From: Desulforhopalus sp.
GTDB lineage: Bacteria > Desulfobacterota > Desulfobulbia > Desulfobulbales > Desulfocapsaceae
Assembly (NCBI GenBank): GCA_024710585.1
Contig: JANJUM010000044.1
Span: 1 to 59,544 of the forward strand
Direction: 5' to 3'
Length of the DNA: 59,544 nt
The notes under the pieces are model-generated. The model did not search any database, had not been told where the DNA came from, and saw only the letters and a list, made by a program, of their open reading frames with translations. Position 1 is the stretch's first letter; each line of letters opens with the position of its first letter. Shown one piece after another: positions 8,363 to 59,544 of the stretch. A program made the position numbers and the translations under genes.

Positions 8363-9322
8363 ATGCTACCCGACCTCAACCGTCTCCACCTCTTCTACCA
8401 GGTCTTCCAGCAGGCAAGCGTCACCGCCGCCGCCACCAGCCTCTGCCTGACGCCCTCCGCGGTCAGCCAGCAGCTCAAGCGGCTCGAAGCGGAGCTGAGG
8501 GCGCCGCTGTTCGTGCGCCTGCACCGCAAGCTGACGCCGACGCCCGCCGGACGCGAACTCTTTTCCGTGGTGCAGCCGCTGTTCACCGACCTGCGCCGCG
8601 GCCTCGACCGCTTCGAGGAGGGGCGCAGCGAGCCCGCCGGGCTGATCCGCTTCGGCGCCCCGGTGGAATTCGGCTCCACCTATCTGCCCCACGTCATCGC
8701 CACCTTCCGCGCCGACCACGCCCGGGTCACCTTCGACCTCGAGCTGGGCCGCCCGGCGGCACTGCTGGCCATGGTCGAGCGCGGCGAGCTCGACTTCGCC
8801 TTCATCGACACCTTCCCGACCCGCGAGCAGCAGGTCTCTTTTGCCGGCTGCAGCGCCCGCGCCGTCCTCGAGGAGGAGGTGGTGCTGGCCTGCTCGCGGC
8901 ACTACAAGGAGCAGCGCGCCCTCGATGATGGCGCCTACGCGACTCTCGCCGCGCAGCACTTCATCGCCCAGCAGCGTGACGCCCATGCCCTCAACAACTG
9001 GTTCCTGCACCACTTCCAGCGCCTGCCGCCCGGCCTCGACATCATCCTCACCGTCTCCAGCCACCAGGCGGTGGTCAGCGCGGTCAAGCACCACCTCGGC
9101 CTGGGCATCGTCGTCAGCCATCTCGTCTGGGAGGACATCGCCGCCGGACGCCTCGTCGTCATGCGGCCGCAGGCGGCGCAGGCCAAGAACCGCATCTCCA
9201 TGGTGCAGTTGGCCGGCAAGGTCCCCTCCCTGCGCGAACGCCTCTTCCTCGACCATCTCCTCCGCCAGGCAGCGAACAGCAAGACCCTGCGGCGCCTCAA
9301 CCTCGTCGTCGAAGGACGGTGA
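8363..9322 (+). CDS. LysR family transcriptional regulator
   Basis: A 319-residue regulator. The N-terminal winged helix-turn-helix covers about residues 1-62 (LNRLHLFYQVFQQASVTAAA, then SLCLTPSAVSQQLKRLEAEL, then PLFVRLHRKLTPTPAG), a textbook LysR DNA-binding domain. The LysR substrate-binding domain follows from about residue 92 (GLIRFGAPVEFGSTYLPHVI) to the end, with IDTFPTRE and VVSHLVWEDIAAGRL as recognisable late segments. It lies head-to-head with the acyl-CoA synthetase gene, so that gene and possibly the ABC importer behind it are the likely targets. The inducer is unknown. Confidence 0.92.
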   Translation: MLPDLNRLHLFYQVFQQASVTAAATSLCLTPSAVSQQLKRLEAELRAPLFVRLHRKLTPTPAGRELFSVVQPLFTDLRRGLDRFEEGRSEPAGLIRFGAPVEFGSTYLPHVIATFRADHARVTFDLELGRPAALLAMVERGELDFAFIDTFPTREQQVSFAGCSARAVLEEEVVLACSRHYKEQRALDDGAYATLAAQHFIAQQRDAHALNNWFLHHFQRLPPGLDIILTVSSHQAVVSAVKHHLGLGIVVSHLVWEDIAAGRLVVMRPQAAQAKNRISMVQLAGKVPSLRERLFLDHLLRQAANSKTLRRLNLVVEGR

Positions 9323-9479
9323 GCACGGGCCGTCCCCGACTGCGGCCAGCACGAGCCGCCCGGCTCGATCTCCCCGGAAAAGGGTTGCCAGGGCCATGGC
9401 GGTAACGGTAGGATGGGAAGACGGGTGGCGCCGCCCTCCTGGCTCCCGCCCCCGCCCCAACCTCGAACCGCGAACGCCG

Positions 9480-12098
9480 ATGACCGCAGCCGTGGAACGC
9501 ACAGAGGCCGCAGGAAGCACCCCCGGCGCCAGTCTGCTCGACGGCCTGGACAACGCCCTGGTATCCGCGATCCTCGACCGCGGCCAGCGGCTGAGCTTCG
9601 TCCAGGGCGACTACCTGCAGCGCCAGGGGCAGCATTCCGCCGGCTTCTTCCTCGTCGTTTCCGGGGAGATCGAGCGGACCCTGCCCCTGCGTGGCGGCGG
9701 CGAGCACCTCATCGGCCACCTCGGCCCGGGCGATCACTTAGGTGAAACCAGGCTGCTCACCGGCAAGGACAGCGGCGAGAACGCCCGGGCACTGACCGAA
9801 GTCGTCGTGCTCGCCTACGAGGACGAGCTCTTCCACAGACTCTTCCTCGACGAACCGACCATCGCCAGACGGCTGCTCCACGGCCTGGCACGGCGCCTGC
9901 GCCGCAGCCATGCCGGGCACTCCGCCGCCCTCGGCAAGGCCATGGGGCCGGCCAGCCTCTCGCCGCGCTATCTCGACCGCTCCTTTCTCGACACCGCCTT
10001 CGCCCCCCCGGGCATGGCCACCGGCGCCGACCGCGGCCTGCGCTTCGCCGAATCGACCATCGCCCGGCAGATCGCCAGGGCGGTGGAGCGCTTCAGCGTC
10101 GACCGCCACCCGCTGCTGCTCAGCGGCGAGAGGGGCACCGGGCGGCGCCTCATCGCCGCCGAGATCCACCACCACAGCCCCGGCCGCCACGGGCCCTGCG
10201 AGGAACTGGACGTCCGCGCGGTCGACCCGAGCCTTCTCGAGGAGGAACTCTTCGGTCGCGGCGGGGACGACCCGGCCCTGCCCTACGCCGGCGACGACAG
10301 CGGCCTCCTCGGCCGCCTCGCCACGGGCACCCTGATCCTCTATAATGCCGAATACCTCGAGCCGGACCGCCAGCGGCAGCTGGTGCAGTATCTGCAGCGC
10401 CCCGGCGAGAGGCCCCGCTGCCGGCTCATCCTCGTCTGCACCGACCGGCCCGGCGACGAGGACGGCCACCAGCGGCTGCTGCCCGCCCTCTACGCCCTCT
10501 TCGCCACTCATCATTTCCGCGCCGCCCCCCTGCGCGACCACCGCCGCGACATCCCCAGGCTGGTCCACTACTACCTGCGGCGCTATTGCCAGCAGTATGG
10601 CAAAGAGCTCGGCATGGTCGACGACCAGACCCTCGGCCGGCTGATCAACTATCACTGGCCCGGCAACCTCGCCGAGCTGAGCGGGGTGATGCAGCGCCTC
10701 GTGCTGCTCGCCCGCCCGCACCAGCCGCTCGACCCGCAGCTCATTCTCGGCCTGCCCAAGGTCGAGGGCAAGTGGGAGTTCAACCTGCTGCAGCTCCCCG
10801 CCCTGCGCCGCTTTCTCTCCAGCCGCCTCTTCCCCCTGGTGCCGCGCCTCGTGGTCGGCCTGTTCTTCTTTCTCGTCGTCGCCCTCCTGCTCCTCGGCCC
10901 GCAACGGCCGGAGGACAATATCGGCCTCACCCTCAGCTGGGTGGTCGGCTGGCCACTGCTGGTCTTCTCCTTCTTCTTCCTCGCCCGCACCTGGTGCAGC
11001 GTCTGCGGCCTGGCCGCCCCGGGCTGGCTGGCGCAGCTGGCGCTCAAGCCGCAGCGGCCGACGCCGCAGTTCATCCGCCGCCACTCGGGATGGATCATGG
11101 CGGCCTTCTGCATCCTCCTTTTCTGGATCGAGACCACCTGGAACGCCGCGCAGTCGCCGCAGCTGACCGCGGGCATCGTCCTCGCCATCACCCTCGGCTC
11201 GCTGTTCTTCAGCATGTTCTTCCAACGCCGCGTGTGGTGCCGCTACCTCTGCCCGCTGGGGGCGATCAACGCCCTCTTTTCCATGCCGGCGGTGATCGAG
11301 CTGCGCGCCAACAGCCAGATGTGCGCCAACCGCTGCACCACTCACCTCTGCTACCACGGCGACGAGGACCACAACGGCTGCCCGATGTTCCGCCACCCCT
11401 TCCTCGTCGACAACAACCGCGACTGCATCCTCTGCGGCCAGTGCATCAAGGCCTGCCGCTTCGACTCCATCCACCTCAACCTGCGCCTCGCCCCCCAGGA
11501 GCTGTGGAACCAGCAGTCACCGCGCCTGGCCGACAGCGTCCTCGTCGTCTGCCTGGCGGCGATCGTCTTCCCCTTCGTGCTGGCGCAGCAGGACGAGGGT
11601 TTTCTTCCCCGCCTGCAAAGCATGGCCAGGGCGGCCGGCCTGCCCGACAGCCTGCCGCTGGTCTCGGCGGCCCTCTTCCTGGCCCTGCTCGTCTTTTTTC
11701 TCGGCGGCTACCGGCTGGTATGCGGCCTGATCGGCAGAAGGGCCGGCGGATGGCGCAATGCGGCCTCGCTGCTCGGCTACGGCATGATCCCCCTGGTGCT
11801 CGGCGCCTACATGGCGGCGCATCTGGCCATCTTCGTGCATGGCATCTGGCTGCTGCCCGCCAACCTCCTCGCCCTGTTCGGCGGCACGGCGTGGCCCTCG
11901 TCGCCGACCCCGCTGCTCTCCGCCGACACCACCTACGCCCTGCAGTTCCTCACCGTCACCGGCGGCCTCCTCGCCTCGCTCTATGCCACCAGCCGCATCG
12001 CCCGCCGCCTGGTGGGCAGAGGACGGCAGCGGCTGGCCTTCGTGCTGCCCGCCCTGCTGCTGGTCCTGCTCGCCCTGGCCTACCTCAAGCTCCTCTAG
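9480..12098 (+). CDS. Fusion: cyclic-nucleotide-binding domain, degenerate sigma54-activator-like AAA domain, NapH/CcoG-like membrane ferredoxin
   Basis: An 872-residue protein in three parts. Residues about 40-140 form a cNMP/CAP_ED domain (FFLVVSGEIERTL, GHLGPGDHLGETRLL). Residues about 185-425 follow the sigma-54 activator AAA layout, but Walker A is GERGTGRR without the catalytic Lys, the GAFTGA loop is replaced by GRGGDDPAL, and Walker B is TGTLILYNAEYL without Asp-Glu. The later LRDHRRDIP and YHWPGNLAEL are kept. From about residue 450 come five or more membrane helices with WCSVCG, WCRYLCPLGA, a cysteine-rich CANRC..LCYHG segment and a ferredoxin CILCGQCIKACRF. No C-terminal HTH exists. 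A redox-linked membrane sensor or electron-transfer protein is inferred. An earlier in-frame ATG at 9396 adds a low-complexity arm and is less likely. Confidence 0.85.
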   Translation: MTAAVERTEAAGSTPGASLLDGLDNALVSAILDRGQRLSFVQGDYLQRQGQHSAGFFLVVSGEIERTLPLRGGGEHLIGHLGPGDHLGETRLLTGKDSGENARALTEVVVLAYEDELFHRLFLDEPTIARRLLHGLARRLRRSHAGHSAALGKAMGPASLSPRYLDRSFLDTAFAPPGMATGADRGLRFAESTIARQIARAVERFSVDRHPLLLSGERGTGRRLIAAEIHHHSPGRHGPCEELDVRAVDPSLLEEELFGRGGDDPALPYAGDDSGLLGRLATGTLILYNAEYLEPDRQRQLVQYLQRPGERPRCRLILVCTDRPGDEDGHQRLLPALYALFATHHFRAAPLRDHRRDIPRLVHYYLRRYCQQYGKELGMVDDQTLGRLINYHWPGNLAELSGVMQRLVLLARPHQPLDPQLILGLPKVEGKWEFNLLQLPALRRFLSSRLFPLVPRLVVGLFFFLVVALLLLGPQRPEDNIGLTLSWVVGWPLLVFSFFFLARTWCSVCGLAAPGWLAQLALKPQRPTPQFIRRHSGWIMAAFCILLFWIETTWNAAQSPQLTAGIVLAITLGSLFFSMFFQRRVWCRYLCPLGAINALFSMPAVIELRANSQMCANRCTTHLCYHGDEDHNGCPMFRHPFLVDNNRDCILCGQCIKACRFDSIHLNLRLAPQELWNQQSPRLADSVLVVCLAAIVFPFVLAQQDEGFLPRLQSMARAAGLPDSLPLVSAALFLALLVFFLGGYRLVCGLIGRRAGGWRNAASLLGYGMIPLVLGAYMAAHLAIFVHGIWLLPANLLALFGGTAWPSSPTPLLSADTTYALQFLTVTGGLLASLYATSRIARRLVGRGRQRLAFVLPALLLVLLALAYLKLL

Positions 12099-12244
12099 CG
12101 GCCGGCGCCGCAGGCAGGGGCGAGATATGGCCCCTCCCTTGCCGCGCCGGGCAATGGTCAATACAATGAGGGAAAGTAGTCCCGCCGGCGCGGACACCGC
12201 CTGCCGGTCCCTGGCTCCCCTCTTCTCAGCCCAGCGTGGAACCC

Positions 12245-13417
12245 ATGCAACGAACCCTCACCTCAGAGAAGCTGCCCATCAGGCTATGGCTTGCCAACAT
12301 CGACGCCGACACCCTGCAACAGGCGAAGAACCTCGCCAACCTGCCCTGCATCTTCCACCATGTGGCGATCATGCCCGATGCCCATGTCGGCTACGGCATG
12401 CCCATCGGCGGGGTGGCGGCGGCGGTGGAGGCGGTCATTCCCAACGCCGTCGGCGTCGATATCGGCTGCGGCGTCGCTGCCTGCCGGACCAGCCTCAACG
12501 CCCTCGACAACGCCAGTCTGAAGCGGCTTCTCGGCGAGGTGCGGCGCCATATCCCCCTGGGCTTCCAGCACCACAAGAAACCGCAGCCGCACAACCTCAT
12601 GCCGGACATCGACCAGGGCGACGGCGCCGGGGAACTCACGGTGGTCGAGGCCGAGTACGAAAGCGGCCGTCTGCAGCTCGGCACCCTCGGCGGCGGCAAC
12701 CACTTCATCGAGGTGCAGCGCGGCGACGACGGCTTCCTGTGGCTGATGATCCACTCCGGCAGCAGAAACCTCGGCTATCGGGTGGCCAACCACTACAATC
12801 GCGTCGCCGCCCAGGTCACCGCCAGGCACAAGCTCTTCCCGCTCTCCTGGCAGCTCGATTACCTGAGGGTGGACAGCGGCGAGGGACGCAGCTATCTGCG
12901 CGAGATGGGTTACTGCGTGCGTTTTGCCGCCGCCAACCGGCGGGCAATGATGGACAGGGTGCAGGAACTGCTTGCCGACCTTCAGCCGGGAGTGGAGTTC
13001 CCCCTCTTCTACGATGTGGCCCATAACTACGCGGCCGTCGAGGAGCATTTCGGCCGCCCGGTGGTGGTGCACCGCAAGGGGGCGACACGGGCGGCGGCTG
13101 GGGAGATCGGTCTCATCCCCGGCTCCCAAGGCAGCCACAGTTACGTGGTGCGCGGCCTCGGCAACGCCGAGAGCTTTTCTTCCTGTTCCCACGGGGCGGG
13201 GCGGCGGCTGGGCAGGAAGCAGGCCCAGCGACAGCTCGACCTGCGCGCGGAGATCGCCCGTCTCGAGGAGCGGGGCATCCTCCACGCCATCCGCCACCGC
13301 AAGGATCTCGAGGAGGCGGCCGGGGCCTATAAGGATATCGACGAGGTCATGGCCAACCAGAAGGACCTGGTGACCATCGTCACCGCCCTCCACCCCCTGG
13401 CGGTGGTCAAGGGGTGA
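12245..13417 (+). CDS. rtcB: RtcB family RNA-splicing ligase
   Basis: A 390-residue RtcB-type protein that joins RNA 2',3'-cyclic-phosphate (or 3'-phosphate) and 5'-hydroxyl ends using GTP and manganese. Visible motifs: IMPDAHVGYGMPIGGV; the metal-binding cysteine in GVDIGCGVAA; LGTLGGGNHFIEV; MIHSGSRNLG; and the guanylation histidine in SSCSHGAGR. It is at the short end of the family and lacks the extra insertions of longer archaeal or E. coli forms, resembling the stand-alone RtcB2-like group. I use ATG 12245; a GTG at 12236 is an alternative. No RtcA or RtcR gene is nearby, so its substrate may be damaged tRNA or mRNA. Confidence 0.9.
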   Translation: MQRTLTSEKLPIRLWLANIDADTLQQAKNLANLPCIFHHVAIMPDAHVGYGMPIGGVAAAVEAVIPNAVGVDIGCGVAACRTSLNALDNASLKRLLGEVRRHIPLGFQHHKKPQPHNLMPDIDQGDGAGELTVVEAEYESGRLQLGTLGGGNHFIEVQRGDDGFLWLMIHSGSRNLGYRVANHYNRVAAQVTARHKLFPLSWQLDYLRVDSGEGRSYLREMGYCVRFAAANRRAMMDRVQELLADLQPGVEFPLFYDVAHNYAAVEEHFGRPVVVHRKGATRAAAGEIGLIPGSQGSHSYVVRGLGNAESFSSCSHGAGRRLGRKQAQRQLDLRAEIARLEERGILHAIRHRKDLEEAAGAYKDIDEVMANQKDLVTIVTALHPLAVVKG

Positions 13418-33832: not shown

Positions 33833-34122
33833 TACATTTGTATTTTTGTCATCAACATCAACGCCGTAACACATCTAAAGAAACAACAAGAGCACAAAGT
33901 TTATCAAGACAGCTGGAATACTGTATCAACGTGTTATTTTATAAACTCGAATAACACAGCACCTCAACCGAAACCGCACCTGCAAATGTAGCACGAACGC
34001 CGAATAAGTATCGTGTTCCGGGCATGGCCACTCCTGCCTCGCCAACCACTGACGGAACGTCATATTTCGTAAAAAAAATTCTCGCGGCCCTCAAAAGGGT
34101 GTTGAGCAGCCTCCACTCTCCC

Positions 34123-34695
34123 ATGAAAAGCCGAATGTCAACTTTCCGTGCCCCCTGGGCAACCAAAGTATTCCATGCCATTTCAAAGCCTTACGGATTC
34201 ACACTAGTTGAACTCCTCACCATCGTTGCCCTGATCGGAATTCTTGCCGCGATAGGAACACCGGCATTCAAAGCCATGATCGACAACAGTCGCCTGAGGG
34301 GGGCATCTCAGGAACTGCTGTCCAACATGCAATTCATCCGCACCGAAGCCATGAAGCGTAACCGCAACGTCGTCGTCTCCTTTGCCCCGGTCAACTGTGT
34401 TCCAACCGTGCCAAGCGGTGGGGGAAGCTACACGATGTTTATCGATGATGGCAGCGGCGCATCGCCGGCTGATGCCAAGAACAACGTTCGCGATGGCGCG
34501 GAACTGATCTTACGAACTGGCTCTATGCCCTCAGGCACGAGCCTCTGCGGAGAGACGTTCATCGGCACCACGACAGGTTTTCTGCCTTCCGGATTCCCCA
34601 TCGGCCTGAACGGCGGGCAGGTGACGCTTCGCAACATACAGGCCAGATCCCATACTCTGACTCTGACCGCGGCAGGAGCCATGTCACTCGATTAA
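34123..34695 (+). CDS. fimT: GspH/FimT-type minor pilin
   Basis: About 190 residues. A type IV prepilin leader ends at G|FTLVELLTIVALIGILAAIG, with Glu at +5. Behind the hydrophobic helix comes TPAFKAMIDNSRLRGASQEL, typical of FimT/GspH, and a beta-rich C-terminal domain with two cysteines. From ATG 34123 the leader is 25 residues, a normal length. ATG 34138 would give 20; the frame is open further upstream to 34024. It is processed by PilD-type peptidase and incorporated as a minor pseudopilin priming fibre assembly. It is the first gene of a five-gene operon. Confidence 0.85.
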   Translation: MKSRMSTFRAPWATKVFHAISKPYGFTLVELLTIVALIGILAAIGTPAFKAMIDNSRLRGASQELLSNMQFIRTEAMKRNRNVVVSFAPVNCVPTVPSGGGSYTMFIDDGSGASPADAKNNVRDGAELILRTGSMPSGTSLCGETFIGTTTGFLPSGFPIGLNGGQVTLRNIQARSHTLTLTAAGAMSLD

Positions 34696-34716
34696 ACCAG
34701 CGAGACGGACGAGATC

Positions 34717-35430
34717 ATGACAACCATCAGAAGGAATACTGCACAGCAAGGGTTCACCCTTGTGGAACTCATGGTGACTATCGTCATTTCAGCGATAATC
34801 TGCGGGGTGATCTACTCAGCATACTCGACATATGTACAGCACTATGTGGCGCAGAGAGCAATAGTCGAAATGCAGGAAAACGTCAGAGCCGCCCTTAGCC
34901 TCATGGCGGACGAGATCCGCATGGCCGGCTACAACCCAAAAGGCTCGAGCGCCGCGGCTGTCGTTTCAGCCACCCGAACATCCCTCTCGTTCACCAAAGA
35001 CACCACCGACGCCACCGGAACTGCCACGGACGGGGACGGGAATCTCGATGGCCCCTTCGAGAATCTTTCCTTGGGCTTTGTACCGGGCACCGATGTCTCC
35101 CCCGCGACACCAGACTGCATCGCCGATAGTGGTGCCGCCCCGCTGACTGTAACCACAGGAGGCGCCCAGATCACCATAGCCAATGATATATCAGCGATCG
35201 AGTTCAACTACCATCTCGAGGATGGAACGAGGAGCACTGAGCCCGCCAAACCAGGAGACATCAGGGCAGTCACCATTTCCATTTTGGCAAGAACTGAAAG
35301 GGAAGATCGAGGGTATAGCGATCAAAAAACCTACATAGCGGATTCCGGAAGAGTCTGGGGGCCATTCTCAGACAACTATCGCCGCCGCCTTCTTGTCGCA
35401 ACCGTATTCTGTAGAAATATGGGGCTTTGA
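34717..35430 (+). CDS. pilW: PilW-like type IV pilus minor pilin
   Basis: A 237-residue prepilin. A short leader (MTTIRRNTAQQG) is cleaved before FTLVELMVTIVISAIICGVI, and a helical stretch with EMQENVRAALSLMADEIRMA then GYNP follows, a PilW signature. The rest is a beta-rich domain with IEFNYHLEDG and VTISILARTE. The gene starts 22 bases after fimT and ends three bases before pilV, giving a tightly packed operon. PilW-type pilins help link PilY1 to the pilus tip and promote assembly. Confidence 0.9.
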   Translation: MTTIRRNTAQQGFTLVELMVTIVISAIICGVIYSAYSTYVQHYVAQRAIVEMQENVRAALSLMADEIRMAGYNPKGSSAAAVVSATRTSLSFTKDTTDATGTATDGDGNLDGPFENLSLGFVPGTDVSPATPDCIADSGAAPLTVTTGGAQITIANDISAIEFNYHLEDGTRSTEPAKPGDIRAVTISILARTEREDRGYSDQKTYIADSGRVWGPFSDNYRRRLLVATVFCRNMGL

Positions 35431-35433
35431 ATC

Positions 35434-35961
35434 ATGCCAAAGAACACTCGCAGCTTGTTGGTGGCTCACGGGGATGAGGGATTCACGCTCATAGAAACGC
35501 TGGTGGCTATAGTTGTTCTCACTATCGGCATTTTCGCCCTTTATGCCATGCAGACGACATCCATTCGATACAATGCCTCGGCCTACGCCATGACCACAGC
35601 GGCGACCTGGGCCGGTGACAACATCGAACGCCTCATGTCCTGTGATTATGACGATCCTTTGCTTCAGGACGACAATAACCCGGTGACCGCCGCGGTCCTC
35701 TGCAGCGGACCCTTGTTTTCGCCACCTGCACCCGCCGATGGTATCGCAGGGCTCAGTGCCACCGGGGCTACAGCCGATGGCCTCATCGTGTCTCCCGATC
35801 AGCGATACACCATTATCTGGAACGTCGCCGATATCATCAAGCCAAACCCCTCCGACGCCAACGCCTCAACGGTCAAGGCTCTCAGGGTTATTGTCCGGCA
35901 CTCCGACCATAGTATCAACAAAGAGGTGACGATGAACTATTTCAAAAAAAAGACCTTCTGA
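35434..35961 (+). CDS. pilV: PilV-like type IV pilus minor pilin
   Basis: A 175-residue prepilin with leader MPKNTRSLLVAHGDEG and mature start FTLIETLVAIVVLTIGIFAL. YAMQTTSIRYNASAYAMTTA and then TWAGDNIERLMS follow, matching PilV family layout (helix followed by an A-x(3)-DxxERLR-like motif). The C-terminal part has VRHSDHSINKEVTMNYF, typical of the last beta-strands. It starts three bases after the pilW stop and is co-translated in the operon. Confidence 0.9.
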   Translation: MPKNTRSLLVAHGDEGFTLIETLVAIVVLTIGIFALYAMQTTSIRYNASAYAMTTAATWAGDNIERLMSCDYDDPLLQDDNNPVTAAVLCSGPLFSPPAPADGIAGLSATGATADGLIVSPDQRYTIIWNVADIIKPNPSDANASTVKALRVIVRHSDHSINKEVTMNYFKKKTF

Positions 35962-36017
35962 TTTTGTTCTGAAGACAACGACAAGCCATTCCTTGGATGT
36001 GCGCGAGAGGGGCAAAC

Positions 36018-36668
36018 ATGCACCGACAGAAAGACAGATATAGGGGCGATGAGGGTTTTGTGCTGGTCACGGCACTGATGATCCTCCTCGTGCTCACTCT
36101 GATTGGAATCTATATGAGCAATCAGACAAACACCGAAATCCAGATCGCAGGCAGCGATAAAGTGCAAAAGCAGACTTTCTACGAAGCTGACGGCGGCACG
36201 GAGTTTGCCGCCGAGATTCTCGAACAGAACATCGCCTGCATTGCCTTCAAGGAGAACGGCGCTGGCGCCACCTTTATTGGCCAAGGGCCGGATATCGCGC
36301 TCGACAACAGTATCGGTGTGGCCGAAGCCAGCCGGCAGCTCTGGCAGAACGCCCTTGGCAAATACAGCGGAGGAACGACGCCCTATCCTTCCGATTCAAC
36401 GAGAGATCTGTGGATTCCTCCTGCCTATGCGGCAGGCGCACCCCACACCAATATCACCATCGAGGGGATCGCCGACCTCTCTCCGGGCTCCTCGATAATC
36501 TTTGCTGCCGGATATCTTGGCCTCGGGAGATCGATAGCCGCCGCCGGAGTGGTCATGGATTATGAGATAGACTCGCAACACATCGGCCCCGCAAATAGCG
36601 AGAGCCTGATTCAAATCGAATATCGTCACGTTGTTGGCAGAGAGGACCCCTTTTGCCGATACGACTGA
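36018..36668 (+). CDS. pilX: PilX-like type IV pilus minor pilin
   Basis: About 216 residues. The leader ends GDEG before FVLVTALMILLVLTLIGIYM; the mature +5 residue is Thr, not Glu, as is normal for PilX. SNQTNTEIQIAGSDKVQKQT and FYEADGGTEFAAEIL follow, matching the PilX_N pattern (QxxFYAAEAGI-like). ATG 36018 is preferred because GAGAGGGG precedes it, giving a short leader; an upstream ATG at 35997 lacks this. PilX with PilV, PilW and FimT forms the tip-priming minor pilin complex carrying PilY1. Confidence 0.88.
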   Translation: MHRQKDRYRGDEGFVLVTALMILLVLTLIGIYMSNQTNTEIQIAGSDKVQKQTFYEADGGTEFAAEILEQNIACIAFKENGAGATFIGQGPDIALDNSIGVAEASRQLWQNALGKYSGGTTPYPSDSTRDLWIPPAYAAGAPHTNITIEGIADLSPGSSIIFAAGYLGLGRSIAAAGVVMDYEIDSQHIGPANSESLIQIEYRHVVGREDPFCRYD

Positions 36669-36721
36669 GCCCAATGCCAGTTTTGGGCAGCTGCTCTGAT
36701 TCACATCTGAGGAGACCAACA

Positions 36722-39700
36722 ATGCGTCGCTCGAACTCCATCAAATCAATAGCCATCACGCTCGCCAGTGCAAGCGTCCTCGTCCTCCCTCTCCTCGCAC
36801 ACGGGGACGTTTGCCAACAAGGCATGGGCATCCCGCCTTTTCTCTCCTCAGGCGCCAAACCGAACCTGCTCATGGCCCTGGACAACTCGGGGAGCATGCT
36901 CGATACCGCGTATGTGGCAACGACCACAACCATGGTCTCGGGCCAGCCGAAAACGACCGTCGACTCGACCAAGGCCTGTGTCGACAATTCATTTGATCCG
37001 TCCAAGACGTACGTCGGACTTTTCGAAGAGGACAAGTGGTATCGATGGGTGGATAGCATCCCGCAATGGATTAGCGGACGTGCGACCCCATACGTCAATG
37101 GAGATCAGGTCGTATCGGAAGGGATAGTCTACAGGGCAACCGAGGCTACGGGCAACATTTCCACCGGGTGGAGCGTCGAGGACGACACCGCGGTACACTG
37201 GGTTGCGGATTACTACATCCCCCCCTGGAGCAACGGCACCGTCTACGCCAAGGACAGTTTCGTCACATATGACAATCAGGTCTTCAGGGCAAGCGCCGCA
37301 GGCACCGCCAACGATCCCAACACCGCCGATGGTATCAGTGTTTATGGGGACACTGGGATCGTGTGGAGCCCGGTCGATTCCACCTGGGTTGCCGGCAAGG
37401 TATATACGAAAAATCAGCTGGCAAGCGATAGAGGTATGCTCTTTCGCAATACCACAGGTGTTTCCACGATTCGTCCTTCACTGGACAAGACCAACTGGGA
37501 AAAAGCCGAGGGGCATTTTGTCAAAGCGACCTTCGGGGACAGTGCTGGAGCCCTGACGGCCTCAGCCGGCCATTCGGGAGATGCTTATTCACAGCCCCAT
37601 TTAGTGGTGAAAATCACCTCCGTAGACGTCAGCGGCTCAACGGTCCAATCGGGAGTCTCGTTCTTTGCGGCCAGTGGAAAGCTCCTCAACTGGGCATCAG
37701 CATCAAAGTTCGATATTGAAAAGAAAATCCTCACTGGGGGGAAGTTCGAAGAACCTCTTGAGGTCTTGATCGGCCAGGGACGTGGTTGTTCATCCCGCAA
37801 TTTTATCAAAGAAGTCCCCGTCACCAAAAGCGGCGGAGGCAATCGTGTCCTGACCCTCGCTCATCGAGGTGCATCAGACGATGATTGGGTCGATACCCTG
37901 GATCAAACCAGCCGCCTCGCCATTCTCGGTGTCAGTGCCAGCGGTTTTATCGGCAGCGAACGACAGCAGGCCTGCCAGGCGGCCATCGACGAAGTCGGCA
38001 AAGGGGATCAGGCAAGTCTTGGAGTCATTAAAACAAATACCAAAACGTGCCTTGATTACAGCACGACGCTGAACAATGTCGCCGCCGCTTCCAATGCCGC
38101 CTTCAACCACTCGGTGCAATCCTGCTGGTTCTACGGCAAGAAACACTACACCTCTCCGGACCCGCATGAAAACATAAGTTCCATAGAACAGGCCTGTCAG
38201 CATATATACGACGGAGGCTACCCTCCCTCGGTGATTGATCCCTGGGACAGTGGCTATATGTGCTACGGCATCTACAACCAAACCCTGCCGGATGCATATG
38301 GCACCTGCCCAGCTGGACTGGGCAGCCCTCGCAGCGGGTATATCGGGCGCTGCTGGGAACCATCCGCCTTGCCCGTCGGCTGCCAGGGTGTCGCGTGCAC
38401 AGGCCCAACCGGAACAGGAAACGACCCTCGATGTTTTAGCGGCTTGCTCTATGACTGCACCGGAAAGCTCGACAAAGACGGCGAGTGCCCAACCAACAAA
38501 AGCTGGCGGCTTGTGTTGGAGAACGACGGAGATCCTCTGACGCCCTCCTGTGATACCACTGCCATCGTGGGATCCGGAGGGTGGACGGATGACAACAACC
38601 CCAATAGCGCGGAAAACTGCATCCGCGAAGCCTTATGGGATTACTGTGGTTCACTGAAAATACCCGAAGTCATCGACCCGTCCGACCTTCTCTCCAATAC
38701 CAACGAGACATGGGGGATGGTTGGCGCCATGATCGACTCCGGTGTGGCCGCCATGTTCGGTTCGGGCCACCAGTTGCTGGTAATGAAGAGTTATATCCGT
38801 GAAACCAGCACTCCACAAGGCATCCTCCATACGGTCGCCAAGGACATTCGTATGGGCGTCATGGCCTTCAACAACAACGGTTCCGAATACGAATGCGAGA
38901 ATTTCGCGGCGACATCTCCAACCATCACCAAGTACTGCCCAAAGCCACCGGCCGTGAACAGGGATGGCGCCAAAGTCATAGCCGCCATTAAAGAAGGGGA
39001 CGCCATCAACCCCAGCACGCAGAAACAGCACATCGAGGAGTTGGCAAAAGCGATCAACGACACGCGTGCAGCCACCTGGACGCCTCTCGCCGAGGCCTTC
39101 TTCAACGCGCTTGGGTACTACGGCCAAAATGCCAGCTATCGTCTCAACGAGACTGATTTCACTATTTCGGCCACGGCAGACCCGGTTCAGTACTGGTGCC
39201 AGCAAAACTACGTGCTGATGATCACCGAAGGGGCCTCCACCGCGGATCTCAACCAACGGATTCTCGAACGAATCAATCATTCAGGCCTGCAGGATCCGAC
39301 TACTGAGAACACTGCCGAGAAAGAGTGTGTCAATACCGCGGGGCAGAGCGATCTTTTCGGGTCCACTTACCTCGATGACCTCACCTATATGGGGTATAAC
39401 GCGAGTCATACCGATATTTACACCACCAGGACGATACAAAGCGATGACGGCATCTCCTACGACAAACGACCAATTACCACCTATATGGTGGTCACTGGTG
39501 CACCACGCGACGACGGCACTGCCGATGAATGCAACCCCGCGCTGCTGATGGCCAATGCCTCCAGCAACGGCGGCACCTCACTGCTTAGCGGAGAGGACCC
39601 GGCAGCACTGGAACAAAACCTGCTCAAGGTTTTTTCCGACATCCTCAACAGAGCCTCCGCAGGTTCTGCCGCCTCCGTCATCTCCAACTCGCGAAGCGGC

Positions 39701-42691
39701 GAGGGGGGTGTCTATCAAGCCATATTCTGGCCGGAAATCGACCGTGGCGTGGGCAAGGAACCGCTGCGCTGGGTTGGCGATGTCCATGCATTCTTCCTCG
39801 ACGAACATGGGATGCTCTGGGATGATTACAGTGGCAACGCCACTTCCACCATAGGTGAACTGTGGAGCGAGGACACCAACGGCAACGGCCTTCTCGACCC
39901 GAACGAAGATCGAAACAACAATGGCGTCCTCGACGGCGATAGAAGAATTCGTATTTTTTACAACAACGACGACAATGTCGAGGCGACACAGATCTGCTTT
40001 AACCCAGAGGAAGCCTACGATGCGCAGGGAAACCGCATTTGCAAGAACTCGGACTATTACAACACCCCAGCGGCCGCTTTGGACCTCCGAGATTTCGACC
40101 GCTATCTCTGGTCTGCGAAAGTGCAGCTCGACAATATCACCGATATCAACACCAACAGGGCCGTGCTCGGTGATGGCACCTGGAATTTCTCGAGCAACAG
40201 ACGCTATATCTTCACATGGAACGATCTCGATAACGATGGCGTTGTCGATACCGACCTCAACCGGGACGGTGCGGTAGACAACGATGGCGATGGCTTAGGT
40301 GATCAGGAAGAAGTTCTCGATGTTGTCCCGGGACTGAATACTCCGCCCCGTAGCGTCGCCAACGCTGTGAGCCCTCGCAACTTGCTGCACAGGGATTTCA
40401 ATGCGCCCAGCACGACGTATCTTGATTATCTGGTTCGCTGGATACGCGGCGAGGATATTTATGAAGATGACAGCAATGGTAACAACGTCCTCGAGCCAGT
40501 AGAAGACCTCAATGGCAATGGCCTTCGCGACTATCTCTTTCGCTGCCGCAAGTATCCGAACTGTGACCCTGCAGCGGTGAACAACCCGCCTTGGCGCCTT
40601 GGAGATGTCATCCATTCAACCCCAACCCTGGTCTCCAGACCTTCCGAAGGCTATCACCTGATCTATGGCGATCAAACCTACGCGAATTTCTACAAGAAGT
40701 ACGTCGGCAGGAGAAATGTCATCTACTTCGGCAGCAACGACGGCATGCTCCATGCGGTCAATGGTGGCTTCTATCAGGCAGGAGTCAACAAATTCCACGC
40801 TTGCCGGGAAGATCAGCGAGATCCTGCGACTCAAGCCTGCCTCGCCTCGGCGCCCTATGACATCAATCCCGCTCGAGCCTATCCTGCCCTGGGCGATGAG
40901 CTATGGGCATATATTCCCTATAACCTGCAACCACATCTCGCCTGTCTGACCGATCCCAACTATAGCCATAAATATTTCGTCGATGCCCCCCCGCGAGTCT
41001 TCGACGCACGGATCTTCCCGGATGACACGGTGCACCCGGATGGATGGGGCACAATCCTGGTCGGCTACATGCGGTTCGGCGGAGCACCGATCCTCGCCGA
41101 TTCAGCACCCTCGCCTGTTGACAAACGAAAGTTCATTTCCGCCTATTTCATTCTCGATATCACTGACCCGGAACGCCCCCCCACACTCCTCGCGGAGATG
41201 ACTTCCACCACAGAGACCCTGACGCCCCCCCAGAAAGATACATCCAAATTCACCGAGATGGGCTTTACTACCGGGATGCCCACCCTCGTTGCCATGCGTG
41301 ATAAAGCCACAGGTAATTCAGAGTGGTTCCTCGTCCTTGGCAATGGCCCGACAACCGTCAAGGGCGAAAACGACCTGCAAGGGAAGATAGCGGTGATTCC
41401 ATTGAATGCGATCACCGGGGTTAACTGGAAACAGAATGGTGACGGAACCTACTTCCCCACCGCAAGAAAAGCTTTCCGCATTCCCAATGCTCTCCCAGGG
41501 GAGACCCCATCTCTGCCACACTTTGGCAGATATTTGATCGAACCCGACTCACAGGACAACAGCGTAAGCTTCGTTGGCGACATGGTTTCCGCCGACTTCA
41601 ACATTCGCGAGCCACAGGCCCCGGGAAAAGGCGTTCCTTACAAAAGCGACGCCGTTTACTTTGGAACCACTGATGGCGAGGGATTCGACGTTCGGCCTAC
41701 CACAGGGCATTCTTTCTGGAATGGCGGGGGCAGACTCTTCAGACTCGTCACCAGGGCAATTGAGCCCAGCGGAGAACAAGTCTATCTCTATCCAGAACAT
41801 TGGCATCTGGAAAAGATGCTTGATGCCCAGGCCCCGATAACGGCAGCTCCCAACATCGGCTACGATGGCAGCAACATATGGATTTACGCCGGAACAGGCC
41901 GTTTCTTGGCCCCGGAAGACAAAACAGACGACAAAAAGCAGTATTTTTTTGGCGTCAAAGAACCTCGCGACACTGAGTGCCGCTACTCCTGGAACACTGT
42001 CGCCTGGTGGTCACCTGCAACTTCTGCTCCCATCGCCCCCAATCCTTCGGCCACACCTGGCAGTCAGGGGCTTTTCCGAACTGACCAGGCCAGAGTCATC
42101 GAAAGCGACCCGACCAACCCGATGCTCTTCAAGGGGAACTACCTCTATTGCGATGGATGCAGCTATCCTCAACTTTCCCCGGTTATAGGGGACGATGTGG
42201 ACGATCATGGCCCATACTATGCGTTCGAGAGCCTGCGTGATTATATCGTCGGAGAAAATTGCGATGCGACGCAGGACAGTGCCATCGGGGTGGACGGGTG
42301 GTACAGGGAATTCACCTCTCTTCGCGAACGATCGCTGGGAATGCCTGCACTGCTTGGGGGAATTGTTACTTATACAAGTTACCAGCCCTCGACCGACGTC
42401 TGCCTGGCGGAGGGCCTCGGCTATTTATATGGGGTATACTATCTCACCGGTACGGCATGGCACGAAAACCTCTTTGGCACAGACTCCGATCTTTTCAACA
42501 GAGAAATCGTTCGTGATCGATTGGGGTTAGGGCAGGGGCTGGTAACCACACCCAGCCTGCAGAGTGGTGGCGGACCAAATGACGTCAATGCCTTCATACA
42601 AACAAGCACCGGAGCGATAGTCCCTATTGGTCAAAACAACTTGCCACTGTCTAATTACAAAAATGGCACAACGAGTTGGAAGAGGAAATAA
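36722..42691 (+). CDS. pilY1: PilY1-like pilus tip adhesin with CBM-like repeats
   Basis: A 1989-residue secreted protein with signal peptide (IAITLASASVLVLPLLAHG). A von Willebrand MIDAS motif LLMALDNSGSM (Asp about 54) opens the vWA fold. Residues about 105-265 then hold three repeats of the pattern W..G..Y..G..V...G..YRA, resembling chitin/cellulose-binding CBM5/12 modules. The remaining vWA strands return near residues 665-990 (IRMGVMAFNNNGSEYE, TWTPLAEAFFNALGYYG, NYVLMITEG). Three calcium-loop clusters follow (DTNGNGLLDPNEDRNNNGVL; DLDNDGVVDTDLNRDGAVDN; DSNGNNVLEPVEDLNGNGLR). From about residue 1290 comes the PilY1 beta-propeller (NVIYFGSNDGMLHAVNGG). GAGGAGACCAAC precedes the ATG. It is far longer than the roughly 1160-residue Pseudomonas PilY1. 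Confidence 0.93.
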   Translation: MRRSNSIKSIAITLASASVLVLPLLAHGDVCQQGMGIPPFLSSGAKPNLLMALDNSGSMLDTAYVATTTTMVSGQPKTTVDSTKACVDNSFDPSKTYVGLFEEDKWYRWVDSIPQWISGRATPYVNGDQVVSEGIVYRATEATGNISTGWSVEDDTAVHWVADYYIPPWSNGTVYAKDSFVTYDNQVFRASAAGTANDPNTADGISVYGDTGIVWSPVDSTWVAGKVYTKNQLASDRGMLFRNTTGVSTIRPSLDKTNWEKAEGHFVKATFGDSAGALTASAGHSGDAYSQPHLVVKITSVDVSGSTVQSGVSFFAASGKLLNWASASKFDIEKKILTGGKFEEPLEVLIGQGRGCSSRNFIKEVPVTKSGGGNRVLTLAHRGASDDDWVDTLDQTSRLAILGVSASGFIGSERQQACQAAIDEVGKGDQASLGVIKTNTKTCLDYSTTLNNVAAASNAAFNHSVQSCWFYGKKHYTSPDPHENISSIEQACQHIYDGGYPPSVIDPWDSGYMCYGIYNQTLPDAYGTCPAGLGSPRSGYIGRCWEPSALPVGCQGVACTGPTGTGNDPRCFSGLLYDCTGKLDKDGECPTNKSWRLVLENDGDPLTPSCDTTAIVGSGGWTDDNNPNSAENCIREALWDYCGSLKIPEVIDPSDLLSNTNETWGMVGAMIDSGVAAMFGSGHQLLVMKSYIRETSTPQGILHTVAKDIRMGVMAFNNNGSEYECENFAATSPTITKYCPKPPAVNRDGAKVIAAIKEGDAINPSTQKQHIEELAKAINDTRAATWTPLAEAFFNALGYYGQNASYRLNETDFTISATADPVQYWCQQNYVLMITEGASTADLNQRILERINHSGLQDPTTENTAEKECVNTAGQSDLFGSTYLDDLTYMGYNASHTDIYTTRTIQSDDGISYDKRPITTYMVVTGAPRDDGTADECNPALLMANASSNGGTSLLSGEDPAALEQNLLKVFSDILNRASAGSAASVISNSRSGEGGVYQAIFWPEIDRGVGKEPLRWVGDVHAFFLDEHGMLWDDYSGNATSTIGELWSEDTNGNGLLDPNEDRNNNGVLDGDRRIRIFYNNDDNVEATQICFNPEEAYDAQGNRICKNSDYYNTPAAALDLRDFDRYLWSAKVQLDNITDINTNRAVLGDGTWNFSSNRRYIFTWNDLDNDGVVDTDLNRDGAVDNDGDGLGDQEEVLDVVPGLNTPPRSVANAVSPRNLLHRDFNAPSTTYLDYLVRWIRGEDIYEDDSNGNNVLEPVEDLNGNGLRDYLFRCRKYPNCDPAAVNNPPWRLGDVIHSTPTLVSRPSEGYHLIYGDQTYANFYKKYVGRRNVIYFGSNDGMLHAVNGGFYQAGVNKFHACREDQRDPATQACLASAPYDINPARAYPALGDELWAYIPYNLQPHLACLTDPNYSHKYFVDAPPRVFDARIFPDDTVHPDGWGTILVGYMRFGGAPILADSAPSPVDKRKFISAYFILDITDPERPPTLLAEMTSTTETLTPPQKDTSKFTEMGFTTGMPTLVAMRDKATGNSEWFLVLGNGPTTVKGENDLQGKIAVIPLNAITGVNWKQNGDGTYFPTARKAFRIPNALPGETPSLPHFGRYLIEPDSQDNSVSFVGDMVSADFNIREPQAPGKGVPYKSDAVYFGTTDGEGFDVRPTTGHSFWNGGGRLFRLVTRAIEPSGEQVYLYPEHWHLEKMLDAQAPITAAPNIGYDGSNIWIYAGTGRFLAPEDKTDDKKQYFFGVKEPRDTECRYSWNTVAWWSPATSAPIAPNPSATPGSQGLFRTDQARVIESDPTNPMLFKGNYLYCDGCSYPQLSPVIGDDVDDHGPYYAFESLRDYIVGENCDATQDSAIGVDGWYREFTSLRERSLGMPALLGGIVTYTSYQPSTDVCLAEGLGYLYGVYYLTGTAWHENLFGTDSDLFNREIVRDRLGLGQGLVTTPSLQSGGGPNDVNAFIQTSTGAIVPIGQNNLPLSNYKNGTTSWKRK

Positions 42692-57195: not shown

Positions 57196-57938
57196 TTATG
57201 TTCGCTTCCGTTGCTCCCGATTTTTAAATCGGTAGCTCTCGTTGCCGGTTTCGATGATATCGCAATGATGGGTCAGACGATCCAGTAAGGCGGTGGTCAT
57301 TTTGGCATCCACAATCACCTGCGCCCATTCGCTGAAGCTCAAATTGGTGGTCACAATCAGCGAGGTTCGTTCATAGAGTGCGCTGATCAGATGGAACAAG
57401 AGAGCGCCACCGTTTTTGGAAAAAGGCAGGTAGCCCAGTTCATCGAGCACGACACATTCCACTCTGGCGAGGCATGCCGCAAAAGCGCCGGCTTTGCCTT
57501 GTTCTTTTTCCCGCTCCAGTTGATTTACCAGATCGACAACGGTAAAAAACGGGCCCGGTAACCAAGTTTGACGCAGTGGGAAGCGAGCGCGATGGCCAGA
57601 TGCGTCTTGCCGGTTCCGGTGCCGCCGATGAAGATCAGATTCCTGGTATGCCTGAGGAAATCGCCATCATACAGCTCGCCGATCAAGGGCTCATTGACCG
57701 GGGAGCCGGCAAAATGGAAGCTGTCAAGATCCTTGGCCACGGGAAAGCGGGCAACACCCATCTGGTAGCGGATGGAACGGGCTTTTCTCTCGACTATTTC
57801 TGCTTGGCAGAGTTGACCGAGGATCTCCTGGACCGTCAATTGCCGACGGATACCCTGAGTGACCGCCTCGTCAAAGGCACCGGCCATGCCATAAAGCTTG
57901 TGCCCCTTGAACCGGTCGATCAGTTCATGCCGCTGCAT
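57196..57938 (-). pseudogene. istB: IstB transposition ATPase, frame split at a TTTTTTA heptamer
   Basis: IstB of IS21 (helper AAA+ ATPase). The zero frame from ATG 57938 (GGAGGTG upstream) gives YGMAGAFDEAVTQGIRRQLT, Walker [21 protein letters not shown] and ends prematurely at 57525. The rest of the protein, with Walker [20 protein letters not shown] and [20 protein letters not shown], is in the -1 frame. The break is at 57549-57543, where the coding strand reads T TTT TTA. A -1 shift there gives [16 protein letters not shown], the expected IstB sequence, and a total of 247 residues, normal for the family. A single-base loss from a T7 run and programmed frameshifting are both possible. Confidence 0.8.
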
Positions 57939-59436
57939 GATCCACCTCCAGACGGAGGGCATCGTAGCGGGCACAGTCGGCCACTGGTTCATGGTTGAGG
58001 CAAAGCCTATCCGGTGCCGAGATCGGACCCACGGCCGGTGGATCCAGTTCCCGGGCGATCAGGTTGAGGATGATTTCCCCACGCACGGTCCCACTCTGCA
58101 AGGCTTTGCCGCATACGGTCTCCACCAGGTCAATCCCATGCGTGCGGGCGGCACAGAGAATGGCGACAAACCCACGATCGCCGCCGACAGACGCCAACAG
58201 TCTGCGTTGTACCTGGGCAAGACCGGGAGGCAACTCCCAGTCCTTGAACGGCGCGCCGTCACGCAAGGCTCCGGGCTTTTGTTCGAGAAGGCCCAGGTAG
58301 TGCCAGGGATCATAGATCGTCCTGTCCCGGCCAAATTGGCGGGTATGTTCTCCGACCACTTTCCCGTCCTTGATCACCCGGATCAGGTCAGCCCCGGCCC
58401 TGATCGTCGCCGTCTTTCCAGCCACCTTGCTCTCCACGCTGTACTGGTTGCGGTCATAGGTGATCAGCGAGGTCCGTGTCACCCGGCATTCCCTCTCGAT
58501 AGAGCCGTCAAAATGGGTACTGAACGGCAGCAGGCTTGATCGCTCCTCCTCATATACCTCCCGGACCGTCCGCTCCTTGTTCTCGGGATGGCGGCGGTTA
58601 CGACTCATGTCCTGGCACCGGCCGGCAAGCCAGTTGTTTAACTCCCCAAAATCCTTGAACCGCGGGCGAGGGGTAAACAGCCATTCCCGCATACTCTTCA
58701 CCTGCCGCTCAACCTGTCCCTTTTCCCAGCCTGAACCAGGAGTACAGGCCACCGGCTCCACGAGGTAATGGCTGCACATCTGCGCTAATCGCCGATTGAA
58801 CAACCGCTCTTTCCCCGACAATACCTGATCAACCGCCGTCGCCATGTTGTCGTAAATGCCACGACGACAGCTGCCACCGAAGAAGGCGAACGCTTGGGCA
58901 TGGGCACCAAGCACCATTTCCAGACTCTCGCGGGGATAGGCCACCACAAAACTATAACGGCTGTAGCACAAACGGAAATGCGCCACCTTGGCTTTCTGTA
59001 CCACGCCACCGAGGATCCACTCATGGCTCCAATCGAACTGATACACGTCGCCAGGGGAAAAGCGCAGTGGGATAAAACCCGGTCCGGGATTACGCCCCTT
59101 TTCTTCCCTCCATTTCTTCACGAAACGCTGAATGCTGTCGTATCCACCGCTATACCCTTCACTTTGGAGCAACTCCAGCAGTCGTCGGCTCGTCAAACGC
59201 CGCTTCTTCGGCCGCTGCCAATCTTCTTCGAGCAAGGCGATCAGGCGAACACGGTACTCATCAAGACGGGGCATCGGCTGAATATCACGTTGGTAATGAT
59301 GTTCCGTCGCACCACTTCGGATCACTTTCCGCACCGTATTGCGCGACAACCGCAGTAACCGGCTAATTTCTTTGATACTTTTGCCGTCAACAAAATGATG
59401 ACGCCGAATCTTCGCTATTGTCTCCACTATCAACAT
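57925..59436 (-). CDS. istA: IS21 family transposase IstA
   Basis: A 503-residue DDE transposase. The N-terminal helix-turn-helix is KSIKEISRLLRLSRNTVRKV. The catalytic rve domain shows YQFDWSHEWI (first Asp), SCRRGIYDNMATAVDQVL (second Asp) and GSGWEKGQVERQVKSMREWL (Glu). The C-terminal part includes LITYDRNQYSVESKVAGKTA, typical of IS21 Mu-type C-terminal domains. The start is ATG 59436 with GGAGGG eight bases upstream. Its end overlaps the istB start by 14 bases, the standard IS21 arrangement. The frame is intact, so the transposase is probably functional if IstB is supplied. Confidence 0.95.
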   Translation of the reverse strand: MLIVETIAKIRRHHFVDGKSIKEISRLLRLSRNTVRKVIRSGATEHHYQRDIQPMPRLDEYRVRLIALLEEDWQRPKKRRLTSRRLLELLQSEGYSGGYDSIQRFVKKWREEKGRNPGPGFIPLRFSPGDVYQFDWSHEWILGGVVQKAKVAHFRLCYSRYSFVVAYPRESLEMVLGAHAQAFAFFGGSCRRGIYDNMATAVDQVLSGKERLFNRRLAQMCSHYLVEPVACTPGSGWEKGQVERQVKSMREWLFTPRPRFKDFGELNNWLAGRCQDMSRNRRHPENKERTVREVYEEERSSLLPFSTHFDGSIERECRVTRTSLITYDRNQYSVESKVAGKTATIRAGADLIRVIKDGKVVGEHTRQFGRDRTIYDPWHYLGLLEQKPGALRDGAPFKDWELPPGLAQVQRRLLASVGGDRGFVAILCAARTHGIDLVETVCGKALQSGTVRGEIILNLIARELDPPAVGPISAPDRLCLNHEPVADCARYDALRLEVDHAAA

Positions 59437-59544
59437 CCTCCTTTCCCTCCGTGAGTAAGTAACCACGGAGTGGGTAACATAGTGGGGCCAATTTTCGACG
59501 CTGTTTTCTACATAACAGGGGTCACTATTCCACGCTGATCAACA

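Follow-up and report, generated by a model that had tools for sequence, protein, structure and literature searches.

The window analysed here, a 59,544-nt stretch of Desulforhopalus sp., a bacterium of sulfate-reducer type (GenBank assembly GCA_024710585.1, contig JANJUM010000044.1), contains a gene for an 872-aa protein that joins a CNB domain, a sigma-54-activator-type AAA+ domain and a membrane Fe-S module. The open reading frame extends over 8841–12098; the ATG at 9480 is a sensible start that agrees with the start region of the homologues. Pfam matches occur in the order CNB, sigma-54-activator AAA, lid and Fe-S domains, comprising cNMP_binding (aa 39–122, 1.4e-14), Sigma54_activat (aa 191–307, 9.9e-13), AAA_lid_14 (aa 352–413, 7.9e-15) and Fer4_5 (aa 564–601, 1.6e-6), each above its curated cut-off, and a Fer4 match at aa 645–664 slightly below the Pfam cut-off. 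This single intact ORF bears out the sequence-only reading that a CNB domain, an inactive AAA domain and a membrane polyferredoxin are combined in one protein. The features are as follows.

8363–9322, + strand, neighbouring gene for a LysR-type regulator (PF00126/PF03466)
9480–12098, + strand, whole gene, 872 aa: CNB, pseudo-AAA (EBP-type) and membrane Fe-S module (full-length homologues)
9594–9845, + strand, CNB-type domain, aa 39–122, without the canonical cNMP Arg (PF00027, 1.4e-14; pocket comparison)
10047–10532, + strand, sigma-54-activator-type AAA+ domain, aa 190–351, catalytically degenerate (PF00158/PF14532, PDB profile matches, Foldseek)
10125–10148, + strand, Walker A remnant GERGTGRR, K222R (alignment against GETGTGKE)
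10266–10301, + strand, site of the absent GAFTGA loop, aa 263–274, DDPALPYAGDDS (alignment)
10326–10346, + strand, Walker B remnant GTLILYN, Asp-Glu replaced by Tyr-Asn (alignment, TLFLDE to TLILYN)
10533–10718, + strand, AAA lid, aa 352–413 (LRDHRRDIP ... YHWPGNLAEL), sensor II Arg replaced by A398 (PF25601, 7.9e-15; alignment)
10767–12095, + strand, membrane Fe-S module, aa 430–872, about 9 spans, Cys loops predicted cytoplasmic (Fer4_5, hydropathy and charge, phylum search)
10995–11006, + strand, first Cys pair, C506-x2-C509 (conserved in 75/75)
11130–11132, + strand, invariant Glu551 in the predicted third span (conserved in 75/75)
11238–11252, + strand, second Cys pair, C587-x3-C591-P, CX3CP (Cys in 75/75; motif type from literature comparison)
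11322–11381, + strand, four-Cys set C615-x3-C619-x4-C624-x9-C634-P (Cys in 75/75)
11424–11456, + strand, four-Cys set C649-x2-C652-x2-C655-x3-C659 (Cys in 75/75; Fer4 match)
12236–13417, + strand, neighbouring gene for an RtcB ligase (PF01139, 2e-111)

Elsewhere in the window, a cluster of minor-pilin genes for a type IV pilus (GspH, PilW, N_methyl, PilX_N domains) followed by a 2012-aa ORF without a Pfam match occupies 34024–42691 on the + strand, and an IS21-like transposase (rve, Mu-transpos_C_2 domains) lies at 57925–59466 on the − strand, near the contig end.

By profile, the AAA domain is a sigma-54 activation domain, with both PF00158 and PF14532 above cut-off, and a PDB profile search with the family profile matched DmpR, NtrC1 and PspF with E-values down to 1e-56. 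To read its motifs, we aligned the protein with six ordinary sigma-54 activators from the same genome. The P-loop glycines, the LFG motif, the LRxH(R/K)xDI(P) helix (LRxHRRDIP in the window protein) and WPGNLxEL were kept, in agreement with the activator layout previously recognised from LRDHRRDIP and YHWPGNLAEL. The catalytic residues were replaced: the Walker A Lys by Arg, GAFTGA by DPALPYAG, the Walker B Asp-Glu pair by Tyr-Asn, both Arg fingers by L334 and L340, and the sensor II Arg by A398. The DNA-binding HTH had likewise been described as lost, and the Pfam search detected none, the membrane module beginning right after the lid.

The motif losses were then counted in 75 non-redundant relatives, consisting of 22 members of the window protein's subgroup A, 26 of a sister-type group B and 27 distant members. 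An intact GAFTGA was found in none of the relatives readable at this site, and an intact Walker B Asp-Glu pair in none of the 75, which upholds both losses as previously claimed; the second Arg finger was never seen among them and the sensor II Arg was lost in nearly all. Sensor I and the first Arg finger were left out of this count, and the loss of the first Arg finger is read from the window protein's alignment with the six activators. The Walker A Lys behaved differently: its reported loss holds for the window protein (K222R) and for the whole of subgroup A (22/22) but not for the family, as Lys was kept in 20/26 group B members and 23/26 readable distant members. Intact AAA motifs in homologues, which would have spoken against the sequence-only reading, were thus found for the P-loop Lys only and never for Walker B or GAFTGA. 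In a tree of AAA domains, the whole family formed one clade against the six same-genome activators (support 0.89), with subgroup A a clade (1.0) and group B, which was set by identity, not strictly one.

A genome survey recovered the same architecture in dozens of relatives, across the phylum and in cyanobacteria: in 49/93 genomes of the family, 68/258 of the class sample and 20/395 of the phylum sample. Named relatives of the window genome include Desulfosediminicola, Desulfopila and Desulfoprunum, and the window genome itself encodes one more full-length version of the protein, at 45% identity, on a different contig. An obligate heteromer of A-type and B-type proteins was considered and is not required, as several genomes carry just one of the two. 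Full-text literature searches, with subscription papers mostly outside their scope, gave no description of a CNB, AAA and Fe-S architecture. A decaying pseudogene or an assembly chimera, with the AAA changes reflecting neutral decay, would be consistent with the small deletions and long branch of the window AAA domain relative to its own subgroup, and with the in-frame TAG or TAA stops in a few relatives (G153:C177:4323-6872, G158:C48:5-2188, G138:C8:19862-21925), which may represent decay, frameshift or stop-codon recoding. However, ORFs were intact in nearly all relatives found, with invariant motifs, and several carriers are single-contig genomes, including NZ_CP050698.1; an architecture shared by dozens of relatives, some of them single-contig, is not an assembly join, and we regard this explanation as highly improbable.

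The CNB, AAA and Fer4_5 fusion is also encoded on two cyanobacterial plasmids, from Aulosira laxa (904 aa) and Pseudanabaena galeata (897 aa), where the annotations read 'nitrogen assimilation regulatory protein' and 'cyclic nucleotide-binding domain-containing protein'. Their AAA parts lack GAFTGA and the Walker B pair and keep the Walker A Lys; a cysteine synthase gene (cysK) follows each fusion gene, and DsrE, rhodanese, glutaredoxin or DSBA-type genes are nearby. A previous survey of 29 cyanobacteria found sigma-54 and its activators in none of them (PMC3162934), and given that the fusion occurs in cyanobacteria without sigma-54, sigma-54 activation cannot be its shared function. The window genome does carry sigma-54, together with about 40 other AAA matches that are mostly ordinary activators by length and profile, and a scan of the window for sigma-54 promoter patterns returned sites at chance number only. 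That the protein is a functional, if unusual, sigma-54 activator anchored in the membrane might be argued from the Pfam and NCBIfam activator models that match the domain, but GAFTGA, the Walker B pair, the Arg fingers, sensor II and the HTH are all missing and the protein is present in a phylum devoid of sigma-54, leaving this reading scarcely credible. By contrast, the proposal that an enhancer-binding protein has been remodelled is well supported by the single degenerate AAA clade, the invariant redox Cys of the adjoining module and the presence in sigma-54-less cyanobacteria, as is the derivation of the N-terminal half from a sigma-54 activator, now a pseudo-ATPase without a DNA-binding domain.

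In the membrane half, all 12 module Cys were present in 75/75 relatives, and E551 and E607 were likewise invariant. Hydropathy and charge suggested about nine spans, placing the Cys loops on the side that carries positive charge and is presumably cytoplasmic. NapH and NosR share a four-span module with two CX3CP Cys-pair motifs linked to quinol oxidation, followed by a C-terminal part with two 4Fe-4S sites (PMC5928378). The window module has the spans, two Cys pairs and two four-Cys sites of this type in the same order, but its first pair is CX2C rather than CX3CP. Similarity to NapH/MauN (TIGR02163) extends over aa 573–666 (4e-12) and includes the order of Cys pair then 4Fe-4S motifs, whereas the CX2C pair, the unusual spacing of the first four-Cys set, the fusion to CNB and AAA and the spans after the clusters are absent from NapH. 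The description of the domain as NapH-like therefore stands as a resemblance, not as membership, given the about five extra C-terminal spans and a full-length NapH model score of 46.2 bits against the curated 213.05. The membrane half had no homologue in a sequence search of the PDB.

A module-only profile run over the phylum sample, with ORF classes tallied by eye from the table, yielded about 29 fused ORFs, about 33 stand-alone ORFs (about 450–530 aa) and a few other fusions. One of two such fusions carries a cytochrome c domain, and the other a YHS domain and adjoins genes for a molybdopterin enzyme, a NapG-like ferredoxin and a NapH-like protein; these fusions and redox neighbours favour electron transfer as the module's basic job. 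The membrane module also occurs alone in Deinococcus ficus. Stand-alone 12-Cys modules were seen beside trp biosynthesis genes (L228, L229, L231, L233) and, in another genome set, near rluD/carD-like genes (L230, L232, L234), all named by eye.

The membrane Fe-S flavoproteins NosR/NirI and RdhC (PceC) were initially taken for transcription regulators and are now placed in electron transfer (PMC5928378). They resemble the window protein in having a membrane module with Cys pairs, followed in NosR also by two C-terminal 4Fe-4S sites; however, they bear an exocytoplasmic FMN domain where the window protein has CNB and pseudo-AAA domains, and about five additional spans follow its Fe-S loops.

The CNB domain shares its fold and GE motif with CRP/FNR-type proteins but, unlike them, is accompanied by no HTH, and in subgroup A it lacks the canonical phosphate-binding Arg. 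By pattern count, this Arg (PR[ST]) was present in 0/21 subgroup A, 13/26 group B and 4/25 distant members, where L093, one of the distant matches, appears spurious on inspection by eye, and some B members in which RS follows a different residue are uncounted. As both the CNB Arg and the Walker A Lys are absent there, subgroup A appears to have lost nucleotide contacts that the others kept, a residue pattern that weakens the case for ligand gating in the window member.

Structure prediction, with four sequences as input, gave a mean pLDDT of 49. Of the three domains, only the CNB and AAA folds were usable within this low-confidence model, with Foldseek supporting an AAA+ type and matching CRP structures and VpsR, but the membrane half mostly scored under 50–60. 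VpsR, TyrR, DhaR and HupR are soluble DNA-binding regulators. Their AAA domain, too, is of the sigma-54-activator type and has no functional GAFTGA loop (PMC3162934), and VpsR is among the PDB matches; the window protein differs in sitting in the membrane and in the additional loss of the catalytic residues.

RtcB adjoins the gene in the window and three close relatives only, and subgroup A has no conserved operon. Subgroup B genes end a conserved hisD-rsmG-leuB-PRPP-synthetase-like run at 18 loci (named by eye); as this run is housekeeping, guilt by association was rejected, and the run suggests no electron acceptor. UspA and receiver genes lie near several members (by eye unless annotated), and STAS/RsbW-like genes, histidine kinase and NtrC-type pairs, and Rex near distant members (named by eye). 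In one genus, a paralogue faces, in convergent orientation, genes for a PAS kinase and a [NiFe]-hydrogenase large subunit that resemble H2-sensing systems (L174:2841-9489, L172, L182; by eye). These neighbours hint at signalling or redox physiology and single out no partner. In one distant subgroup, a gene for a small membrane protein (about 150–165 aa) lies directly upstream in the same direction (L171, L173, L177, L180, L147).

Such surroundings bear on the possibility that this is a signalling protein, in which the Fe-S module senses the state of quinone, sulfide or oxidant, with the pseudo-AAA/CNB half passing this signal on to a regulator, for example as an anti-activator that sequesters or co-assembles with active sigma-54 activators. 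Signalling neighbours in several lineages, the conserved activator-like surfaces (LFG, WPGN, LRxHR) and the many ordinary activators in a sigma-54-bearing genome are consistent with this. However, mixed rings would be poor given the lost Arg fingers and sensor II, the cyanobacterial members have no sigma-54 partners and the neighbours vary between lineages, and on balance we consider this reading rather unlikely.

Taking these observations together, we favour, at a probability of about 55%, a membrane redox protein whose pseudo-activator half is a regulatory scaffold. Such a protein would reside in the cytoplasmic membrane, with its C-terminal half a NapH/NosR-type helix bundle, perhaps turned towards the quinone pool, and with two Cys pairs and probably two [4Fe-4S] clusters presumably facing the cytoplasm. 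The pseudo-AAA half would most likely serve as an oligomerising, partner-binding scaffold that, together with the CNB domain, may link the binding of a ligand or nucleotide to the module's redox state or electron flow, possibly through a cytoplasmic partner. While the architecture previously read from the sequence is confirmed, its interpretation is thus supported in part only; judged from sequence features, a redox sensor or electron conduit is plausible.

The 'nitrogen assimilation regulatory protein' label in public records is very probably a misnomer, and proteins of this kind may have entered tallies of sigma-54 activators in these bacteria. More broadly, and with somewhat less than even confidence, we speculate that these proteins form a widespread and hitherto undescribed class of membrane redox switches built in one piece, where a captured sigma-54 activator, stripped of its ATPase and promoter functions, was kept as a ligand- or nucleotide-sensing scaffold gating or reading an Fe-S electron conduit. 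One bacterial family would then have two specialised paralogues, of which one has mostly kept the nucleotide-binding residues and the other has not. If the redox reading is true, a motor domain would have found new use as the regulatory scaffold of a respiratory-type module, a case open to testing in named relatives, for instance Desulfosediminicola flagellatus or Desulfopila aestuarii, and one shared by sulfur-cycle bacteria and cyanobacteria.
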